Below are positions 32,694-46,537 of a stretch of 64,000 nt of DNA, piece by piece. The stretch spans positions 1,612,001-1,676,000 of the forward strand of contig NZ_AP023189.1 in NCBI RefSeq assembly GCF_012767755.2. Direction: 5' to 3'. Position 1 is the first letter of the stretch, and each line of letters begins with the position of its first letter. Both the position numbers and the translations under genes were made by a program. The stretch is from Pseudomonas tohonis. GTDB lineage: Bacteria; Pseudomonadota; Gammaproteobacteria; Pseudomonadales; Pseudomonadaceae. Below the pieces are notes generated by a model that worked only from the letters and a program-made list of their open reading frames with translations, was not told the origin of the DNA and ran no database searches.

Positions 32694-32707
32694 TTGACCT
32701 GGATCAG
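32694..32707. promoter_or_regulatory. Second, weaker ANR/FNR-like box
   Basis: TTGACCTGGATCAG, one end off the TTGAT-N4-ATCAA consensus, 36 bp upstream of the perfect box. It may strengthen ANR (or Dnr) binding at the phrS promoter. Confidence 0.5.
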
Positions 32708-32743
32708 TTCCCCGACGGCCTCGCCGGCGGGGCCCTGCGCCCA

Positions 32744-32757
32744 TTGATCCAGATCAA
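32744..32757 (+). promoter_or_regulatory. ANR box of the phrS promoter
   Basis: TTGATCCAGATCAA is an exact match to the ANR/FNR consensus TTGAT-N4-ATCAA. Its centre (32750.5) is 41.5 bp before position 32792, and a -10-like TACCTT lies at 32780-32785, the classic layout of an oxygen-limited, ANR-activated promoter. Confidence 0.88.
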
Positions 32758-32827
32758 TTTCCCCTGCCAGGCGCGGGTCTACCTTTGACCCATCGAAACA
32801 AACAACGCCAACGCAGGAGGCAGCCAA

Positions 32828-32944
32828 ATGTTCATCGATGTAGTGGTTCTCGCCGGTATCGGGACCGTAGGTCTGATGGTCGCCTTCTTCGCAGGCGTCG
32901 GATATTTCATCTGGAAGGACTCGCACAAGCGCGACAAGGCTTGA
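32828..32944 (+). CDS. ccoM: CcoM-like small subunit of cbb3 oxidase encoded within phrS
   Basis: A 38-residue single-helix membrane peptide. It begins MFIDVVVLAGIGTVGLM, has one transmembrane helix up to about residue 29 with FIWKD at the membrane edge, and a basic tail. AGGAGG at 32815-32820 sits 7 bp before ATG, so it is very well set up for translation. As I remember, the P. stutzeri cbb3-oxidase subunit CcoM is of the same length and begins MFVD-VVLAG with a closing YFIWKD. An oxygen-limited promoter fits a cbb3 subunit. That PhrS's frame and CcoM are the same gene is my inference from these features. Confidence 0.75.
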   Translation: MFIDVVVLAGIGTVGLMVAFFAGVGYFIWKDSHKRDKA

Positions 32945-32977
32945 GTCCACCAGGTTCACAGGCACGCAAGGCACCTC

Positions 32978-33002
32978 GGGCGACTTCGGTCGCCCTTTTT
33001 TT
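32978..33002 (+). terminator. phrS: Rho-independent terminator of phrS
   Basis: GGGCGAC (32978-32984), TTCG loop, GTCGCCC (32989-32995), then seven T (32996-33002). An ideal intrinsic terminator. Confidence 0.93.
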
Positions 33003-33124
33003 CGTCCGCGATTCTTGCCCCGCCGAGCTCCACACCTTCACGTAGGGCGGGTGAAACCCGGGAACGCCCAGGCTCCGGGATGTGGAGTCTCACCCGACCC
33101 ACGGCACTTCATGGTCCATCGCCA

Positions 33125-38908: not shown

Positions 38909-39101
38909 ATGGTCCCTGGGCGGCGTGCTGCTCAGCCCCTTTCTGATGTATGCGCTGGCGGCGCTGCTGGCGACGGGCGTGCTGCGCCTGGCCCTGCAGC
39001 GTGTCGGCATGGCGCGCTGGATCTGGCACGAAGCGCTGTTCGACTGTGCCCTGTATGTCTGTGTCCTGTCGTTGCTGGTCGCCTGGTTCGGGCACTGGTG
39101 A
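38895..39101 (+). CDS. DUF1656-family small membrane protein (AaeX-like)
   Basis: A 68-residue protein with two transmembrane helices (residues about 8-28 and 48-66), matching DUF1656/AaeX, which is always encoded between FUSC pumps and their adaptor. GGAGG at 38884-38888 precedes ATG 38895, inside the end of the FUSC gene. AaeX has an unclear accessory role in the pump. The adaptor gene starts 12 bp beyond the stop. Confidence 0.88.
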   Translation: MGLREWSLGGVLLSPFLMYALAALLATGVLRLALQRVGMARWIWHEALFDCALYVCVLSLLVAWFGHW

Positions 39102-45703: not shown

Positions 45704-46537
45704 ATGCGTATGAACGTGCGTCGAATCCTCCTGGCCTGGATGCTGGGAGTTGTCGTCGTCGGCCCGACCGTGGCCGCTGAAAACCCGTCCGCGAAACCGG
45801 TGATCGGTTCCGCCTCGCCGCAGGCCGTGACCGGCCGCCCGCTCAGCGTGCTGTTCGTGGGCAACAGCTACACCTTCTACAACGACCTGCCGCGCATGGT
45901 CCGGCAGATGTCGCTCGACGCCGCCCAGCCGCGCCCGCTGGACGTGCGCGACGTCACCTTCGGCGGCGCGAGCCTTGAGGCCCACTGGAACCGCGGCGTG
46001 GTGCAGCAGGTGCTGGCCAGCCAGCACTGGGACTACGTGGTGATCCAGGACTTCAGCACCATGCCGGTGGACAACCCCGAGAAGACCCGCACCTACGTGC
46101 GCCTGATGGCCGCCGAGGCACGCAAGGCCGGCGCCCAGCCGATCCTCTACCTGACCTGGGCGCGCCAGGCGAACCCGGCCATGCAGGCGCAGCTCGATGC
46201 CGTCTACACCGGCCTGGCCAACGAGACCCACGCACTGCTGGCCCCGGTCGGGCAGGCCTGGAAGCAGGCCCTGGCGGCCACCCCGCAACCGCACCTGTTC
46301 ATCGAGGACGGCAGCCACCCGAGCTACAGCGGCAGCTACCTGACCGCCTCGGTGTTCTACGCGCTGATCTACGGCGTGCAGCCGCCGGCACCGTCGTCCG
46401 AGCAGGCCGCGCGCCTGGACCACGACAGCAGCAGCGCCCTGCAGGGCTTCGCCTGGAACTCCCTGCAGGCCCAGGACCTGGCCCTGCGCACCGTCCCGGC
46501 CGAGCTGCGCAGCCTGCCGATCACCGCCACCCGCTGA
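45704..46537 (+). CDS. Secreted SGNH/GDSL-type hydrolase
   Basis: A 277-residue protein with an N-terminal Sec signal (RILLAWMLGVVVVGPTVAA, cleavage before ENPS). Block I is LSVLFVGNSYTFYNDLPRM, where S of G-N-S would be the nucleophile; block V is DGSHPSYSGSYLTASVFYA with the catalytic Asp and His (D-x-x-H). Such enzymes act on esters or acyl groups in the periplasm or outside; the substrate is unknown. ATG 45704 is chosen because it opens the signal peptide; another ATG lies 2 codons on. No coupled neighbour; hrpA follows after 108 bp. Confidence 0.85.
   Translation: MRMNVRRILLAWMLGVVVVGPTVAAENPSAKPVIGSASPQAVTGRPLSVLFVGNSYTFYNDLPRMVRQMSLDAAQPRPLDVRDVTFGGASLEAHWNRGVVQQVLASQHWDYVVIQDFSTMPVDNPEKTRTYVRLMAAEARKAGAQPILYLTWARQANPAMQAQLDAVYTGLANETHALLAPVGQAWKQALAATPQPHLFIEDGSHPSYSGSYLTASVFYALIYGVQPPAPSSEQAARLDHDSSSALQGFAWNSLQAQDLALRTVPAELRSLPITATR

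Follow-up and report, generated by a model that had tools for sequence, protein, structure and literature searches.

A locus in a 64-kb window of the Pseudomonas tohonis genome (the window being the whole stretch of DNA analysed) is predicted to produce a PhrS RNA that carries a CcoM-family frame. We consider it probable, at about 0.82, that this RNA serves as the ccoM messenger and likely acts, as a separate function, as a base-pairing small RNA through its creg element. According to this model, low oxygen would activate ANR, which would switch on the PhrS/ccoM transcript together with ccoN1; the frame would be translated and CcoM would join the cbb3 complex, and creg, which lies between frame and terminator, would then pair with other mRNAs. 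Lineages that lose cbb3 would drop the frame and often keep the ANR box, creg and terminator, in one genus as an RNA of ~70 nt. The first half of the model, in which one low-oxygen transcript would yield CcoM, is backed by strong homology. The second half, in which creg would act on other RNAs, is likely, and draws on published work on creg in P. aeruginosa and on natural copies that have no frame.

The predicted layout of the locus is given in Table 1. The transcript start at 32792 was chosen because this places the proximal ANR box at its predicted distance, and TACCTT would then span -12 to -7. The proximal box is the sole perfect copy within the 64-kb window (chance expectation, 0.01 sites) when scored with an ANR consensus, and the distal box lies 50 bp from it, centre to centre. 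The terminator consists of a stem (32978-32984/32989-32995) followed by a T-run to 33002, and a gene for an AlkB-like 2OG-Fe(II) oxygenase is located upstream of the locus. The earlier sequence-only reading had named the perfect ANR box at -41.5, the TACCTT, the AGGAGG, the 38-codon frame and the terminator, and all of these are present; its RNA length of about 212 nt becomes 211 nt in our prediction. The same organization is widespread. Among the best 80 of at least 487 confirmed relatives, predicted ANR boxes scoring at least 8/10 occur at most 170 nt upstream of the frame in all 80, and 53 have two such boxes; of the same 80 loci, 75 have the AlkB-like gene as a neighbour and 78 a small Lys-rich frame, and the predicted RNAs measure 198-249 nt (median 208, n=77). 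Both boxes, creg and the terminator also stand out in an alignment of the window with five hand-picked species.

Table 1. Predicted features of the PhrS/ccoM locus, in window positions
Feature	Position	Strand	Basis
Distal ANR-like box TTGACCTGGATCAG, weaker	32694..32707	+	
Proximal ANR/FNR box TTGATCCAGATCAA, perfect	32744..32757	+	predicted at -41.5
-10-like TACCTT, predicted	32780..32785	+	read in sequence; fits start 32792
PhrS/ccoM transcript, predicted 211 nt	32792..33002	+	RF01673 match 32796-33004
Shine-Dalgarno AGGAGG	32815..32820	+	read in sequence
ccoM, 38 codons	32828..32944 (ATG 32828, stop ends 32944)	+	NF041600.1 and PDB 5djq_N
creg element GCACGCAAGGCA, 12 nt, predicted base-pairing seed	32962..32973	+	exact 12-mer
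Intrinsic terminator	32978..33002	+	read in sequence; covered by RF01673

The Rfam PhrS model (RF01673) matches the locus over all 212 model positions with 177.1 bits (E 4.5e-44), above its gathering score of 37, and the 12-nt creg downstream of the frame, a PhrS trait, is present and exact. By homology, the locus encodes a PhrS RNA. It resembles PhrS of P. aeruginosa in family, ANR box, creg, terminator, length and the presence of a short internal frame, but the best known target of that RNA, PqsR, was not found in the genome of the window at the threshold used below. Another difference concerns the peptide, whose function is described as unknown for P. aeruginosa in the available parts of reviews, whereas here it is identified as CcoM.

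By homology, the 38-codon frame belongs to CcoM, a family of cbb3-oxidase subunits. The NCBIfam equivalog model NF041600.1 (cyt_ox_CcoM) matches it at positions 1-34 of 34 with 74.5 bits (cut-off 40). In a comparison with all PDB chains, the sole significant match was 5djq_N (36 residues; E 2.5e-14), to which the frame is 74% identical over 35 residues; the next chain had an E of 0.75. Chain N of 5DJQ, labelled 'putative uncharacterized protein' by its depositors, scores 71.7 bits on the CcoM model, and we take it to be CcoM of the P. stutzeri cbb3 oxidase. This protein was reportedly described by Kohlstaedt in 2016, in P. stutzeri ZoBell, as a subunit of the cbb3 oxidase 36 aa in length. The ZoBell protein has the same start and falls in the same length class as the present frame (36 aa versus 38 codons), whose product is a predicted subunit. 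CcoM is important under oxygen limitation in P. stutzeri, according to the available part of PMC10433244. CcoQ/FixQ (PF05545), which is also a small cbb3 component, was rejected as an identity for the frame; the resemblance is weak (12.4 bits, E 0.15) and lies below the gathering cut-off of 29.

The two families converge from the other direction as well. The frame translated from the PhrS consensus of Rfam scores 67.2 bits on the CcoM model, and the ccoM loci of S. stutzeri 24a75 and P. aeruginosa PA7 match RF01673 with 154.1 and 204.1 bits, respectively, the S. stutzeri gene likewise lying inside a PhrS-type RNA. It follows, at the level of homology, that ccoM of the P. stutzeri type and phrS of the P. 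aeruginosa type are one and the same gene. The frame is also conserved across pseudomonads under purifying selection, as indicated by a pooled pN/pS of 0.24 and a median dN/dS of 0.13; the underlying pairs are not independent, and many of them approach saturation at synonymous sites. The values were obtained from 111 frames (95 unique) out of 113 loci, two loci (L123 and L133) having been left out by a motif filter, and the median was taken over the 2081 of 4465 pairs with a pS of 0.05-0.6. The pooled value accords with protein-level selection on the frame, a trait of dual-function RNAs. The resemblance to CcoM that the sequence-only reading had noticed is borne out by the equivalog, PDB and consensus-frame scores; it had named missing CcoM similarity, missing conservation and a missing Rfam match as outcomes that would count against it, and similarity, conservation and the Rfam match were all found.

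The genome of the window encodes cbb3 with three ccoN genes. A perfect ANR box is located upstream of ccoN1 (G000:4158468), and no box of at least 8/10 was detected in the stretches fetched for the other two. Because both ccoM and ccoN1 have perfect boxes, CcoM and cbb3 would share a predicted switch.

At the family level, among 298 Pseudomonadaceae genomes, the PhrS model was detected in 291 at E<=1e-3 (276 above the gathering score), CcoM in 271 (270 above the cut-off) and ccoN in 274 at E<=1e-100. Among 369 class-wide genomes, CcoM was found in five, three of them above the cut-off, namely the genome of the window, one of the same family and one of another family in the same order (G661). 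The 93 pattern stretches taken from viral contigs included no relatives. Genomes absent from the match lists were identified by elimination from the numbered set of 298. ccoN is missing from 18 of the 27 CcoM-less genomes versus 6 of the 271 with CcoM (Fisher p 1.6e-17, kinship ignored). The 18 double losses span four genera (g6, g11, g12 and g13), 11 of them being in g6, where ccoN was detected at the threshold in none of 13 sampled genomes; g6 presumably resembles the oryzihabitans/luteola group, which is classically oxidase-negative. The messenger part is thus mostly kept together with the oxidase, and genomes without ccoN have usually lost the frame as well. To judge from these gene contents, CcoM is dispensable, because 9 of the 27 CcoM-less genomes keep ccoN. 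The six genomes with CcoM but without ccoN at the threshold are G039, G210 and G248, which are 71-78% complete, G072, which is complete, and G099 and G113. The last two, which belong to g6 (L137 and L138), carry a diverged CcoM-like frame that may be decaying or have another partner.

These distributions bear on two alternative accounts of the messenger half. In the first, the co-loss of CcoM and ccoN would be a chance outcome of a handful of lineages and of assemblies with missing parts. In its favour, 11 of the 18 double losses fall in g6, the Fisher statistic takes no account of this kinship, and two of the assemblies (G051 and G053) are only 70-77% complete. However, the losses are spread over four genera, 16 of the 18 assemblies reach a completeness of 99% or more and one g6 genome (G091, described below) contains a frame that has decayed in place, so we regard such an accident as rather unlikely. 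It is also conceivable that the peptide, although CcoM-like, has another job as a membrane small protein and is no cbb3 subunit outside P. stutzeri, which would suit the nine genomes with ccoN but without CcoM and the six with the reverse pattern, as well as the lack of effect of the frame alone on CRISPR2 reported in the accessible part of PMC6700203. Such a role is quite improbable given the equivalog-level match, the 74% identity to a crystallised chain, the co-loss with ccoN and the common predicted control by ANR boxes. We therefore retain the reading in which the transcript would be the ccoM messenger.

The genomes that lack CcoM are also informative about the remainder of the RNA. An exact creg with a terminator was found in 16 of the 27, 13 of which have no ccoN, and an ANR box of at least 8/10 precedes 15 of these 16 copies. 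In two other CcoM-less genomes (G027 and G051), an exact creg is followed by a T-run and the stem falls short of our terminator criterion, and in another (G267) creg has one mismatch. No creg copy was found in the remaining eight: in five (G012, G041, G053, G186 and G286), the best RF01673 match contains no creg, and in three (G029, G037 and G055) there was no RF01673 match at all. In G005 and G002, the frame-less copy holds the only exact creg of the genome, and a chance origin of the G005 copy is unlikely because this sole creg also stands behind an ANR box.

Ten of the frame-less copies, all in g6, form a distinct class of short RNAs predicted to be 68-74 nt long, in which a 5' stem, creg and the terminator follow one another without a CcoM frame and the ANR box lies 76-81 nt before creg. 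They score 26.6-32.1 bits on RF01673, below the cut-off of 37, and neither the AlkB-like nor the Lys-rich neighbour was found in the 3 kb fetched. Because of these scores and the absent neighbours, their descent from PhrS would have to be argued from the ANR box, creg and terminator; we consider them PhrS-like and likely related, and do not count them as PhrS members. In an alignment of the ten, the region from creg to the terminator is nearly invariant. In the 5' stem, 3 of the 11 pairs have changed on both sides with pairing kept, and at five others pairing is lost in one or two sequences, which gives moderate support for this stem.

Five of the 16 frame-less loci exceed the RF01673 cut-off (G010, G013, G054, G091 and G256). 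In G054 and G256 (49.5 and 40.6 bits), both of which retain ccoN, the usual locus next to the small Lys-rich frame has no CcoM frame. In G091, a g6 genome, the locus scores 63.6 bits with its usual neighbours in place, and a relic of ccoM, containing a stop and a frame change, lies between an ANR-type box and creg with its terminator; this looks like a messenger part that has decayed and a regulatory part that has been retained. Since the frame appears to be lost with the oxidase and the creg part to survive alone, the RNA likely has two separable jobs. G010 has two creg copies ~0.7 kb apart (L144, reverse-strand 965 and 1647), both of which match the PhrS model, and upstream of the copy examined there is a shortened ccoM-like remnant.

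In the window, GCACGCAAGGCA is the sole exact copy of creg, an element on which the sequence-only reading was silent, and one copy with a single mismatch is present at 46118. A 12-nt creg located within nt 169-182 of PhrS has been described (PMC9308961, in its available part), and in the PhrS match of PA7 the 12-mer starts at nt 171. Among the best 80 of at least 487 confirmed relatives, 77 carry an exact copy, as against a mean identity of 0.53 in the 25 nt preceding it (75 loci among the same 80). In MFE folds, part of creg is paired. In all four examined loci of genus g5 that keep CcoM (L140-L143), creg has been altered to GCTCGCAAGGCC, with two mismatches, and in L139 it has three mismatches. 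The four g5 loci are Stutzerimonas-like, and their common GCTCGCAAGGCC represents a lineage-specific seed change that could match a changed target. Outside the family, G661 has a 40-codon CcoM-like frame with FNR-type boxes upstream; creg was not seen at that locus, where RF01673 reaches 16.4 bits. Judged by this one outgroup, creg was apparently added in Pseudomonadaceae to an oxygen-controlled ccoM of earlier origin.

The targets of creg were sought in several ways. In P. aeruginosa, PhrS depends on Anr and acts through an upstream frame to stimulate the translation of pqsR (PMC8395346; PMC9308961), creg is reported to be necessary for pqsR regulation (PMC9308961), and creg but not the frame is required for the action of PhrS on CRISPR2 (PMC6700203), all according to the available portions of these papers. 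Using the first 227 residues of PqsR/MvfR from PA7 as the query, we found no match at E<=1e-40 in the genome of the window (9 of 88 first-look candidates scored), and this N-terminal piece was matched in only 3 of the 298 Pseudomonadaceae genomes at the same threshold. Of 300 shuffles, 17 equalled the pairing of PA7 creg with the pqsR leader (-22.1 kcal/mol); the leaders of the other two PqsR carriers fitted no better than shuffles (92/300 and 190/300). PqsR is thus a target in few species at most, and pqsR was rejected as a conserved family-wide target. The two other carriers (L120 and L121, in G019 and G001) belong to genus g2, outside the genus of P. aeruginosa, and have genomes of 4.7-4.8 Mb and PqsR/MvfR homologues 80-86% identical to that of PA7; the PA7 mvfR frame itself (L114:4218-5249) appears to contain a frame change in its final third.

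Exact 12-mers complementary to creg were searched for in 38 relatives, including 18 same-genus genomes. The latter yielded 42 matches, 18 of which are phrS itself, leaving 24 others versus 8 for a reversed control; in the genome of the window, phrS is the only match. No gene is widely common among these 24 sites and 10 more from four other genomes, one site recurring before a frame in G115, G062 and G101 and three others recurring in pairs. Pairing of creg at the ccoN starts was rejected, as 51, 86 and 79 of 100 mononucleotide shuffles were as good in the three stretches of this genome. A review of 2025, in its available part, states that PhrS lowers cyoAB expression (PMC12101431). The PA7 cyoA gene (L243 ~11413; G126:C1:4211413, - strand) is preceded by a 14-codon frame that has its own Shine-Dalgarno sequence, with which a 7-nt creg complement is flush, and whose stop overlaps the cyoA start, an arrangement that recalls the upstream frame of pqsR. 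The creg-cyoA leader pairing was nevertheless not significant, as 191 of 300 shuffles were as good and a run of 8 appeared in 104 of 1000. The PA7 cyo neighbourhood is partly collinear with the genome of the window, and 400 kb of that genome (G000) and another 400 kb of G161 yielded no match to the cyoB motif.

There is also an alternative to the regulatory half of the model: the frame would still make CcoM, but creg would be a 3'-end element serving stability, Hfq landing or termination rather than a trans-acting seed. Its position directly before the terminator is what such an element would have, the 18 same-genus genomes share no widely common exact target gene, and neither the ccoN starts nor the PA7 cyoA leader gave anything above shuffles. 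Even so, we find this reading unlikely, in view of the published need for creg in pqsR regulation and CRISPR2 stimulation cited above, of its invariance in the short g6 RNAs while 3 of 11 pairs of their 5' stem changed on both sides, and of its exactness in 77 of the 80 loci next to a poorly conserved 25-nt stretch. The version favoured by the sequence-only reading, in which the transcript would couple respiration at low oxygen with quinolone signalling in this organism, is partly true for P. aeruginosa by published work (PMC8395346, in the part available), and the PA7 creg-pqsR leader pairing beats most shuffles. For the present organism it is highly improbable: PqsR was not found here at E<=1e-40 and occurs in 3 of 298 genomes, as against 271 with CcoM, and the pairing is unsupported in the other two carriers. 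The same reading had called PhrS an antisense regulator of pqsR; regulation of pqsR stands for P. aeruginosa, but PhrS activates through an upstream frame (PMC8395346, available part), so 'antisense' is a loose term. The preferred reading therefore remains a ccoM messenger that likely also pairs, through creg, with other RNAs.

A broader proposal would make PhrS an oxidase-switch RNA of all Pseudomonadaceae, with CcoM serving cbb3 and creg repressing a competing function such as bo3 (cyo); control of pqsR would then be a late addition in P. aeruginosa, and lineages without cbb3 would keep a bare creg small RNA. The lowering of cyoAB by PhrS, reported in the accessible text of PMC12101431, would make it such a switch, but we hold this proposal to be tentative and, on balance, doubtful.

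PhrS and CcoM are each already known, and the NCBI model would name the frame CcoM where applied. In the available parts of reviews of 2021 and 2022, the conserved 37-aa peptide of PhrS is said to have a function that 'has so far remained elusive' (PMC8395346; PMC9308961). Our literature search returned no paper joining PhrS and CcoM, although the link may have been made earlier, in Kohlstaedt 2016 or Sonnleitner 2011; no PhrS-cbb3 link appears in the accessible part of PMC12491237, and the frame-less short RNA and the co-loss with ccoN are not described in the portions of the PhrS/CcoM literature examined. VcdRP of Vibrio cholerae reportedly also combines a small protein and a pairing region in one transcript (PMC8672173). 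A difference is that, in the present case, natural frame-less copies suggest an evolutionary separation of the two parts, which the sequence-only reading could not have detected. The identity of PhrS and CcoM makes the question of the peptide directly testable, and the phenotypes of phrS deletions may partly be due to the loss of CcoM. Quinolone control would be recast as a species-specific extra, and the frame-less short RNAs would be natural mutants that separate messenger from regulator and point to a conserved creg target.

In addition, the Rfam small RNA P18 (RF01671) was detected in the window at 38919-39053 (+) with 82.6 bits. In P. aeruginosa PA7 and P. putida W15Oct28, P18 is located downstream of phrS as well, at a distance of ~2.2 kb.
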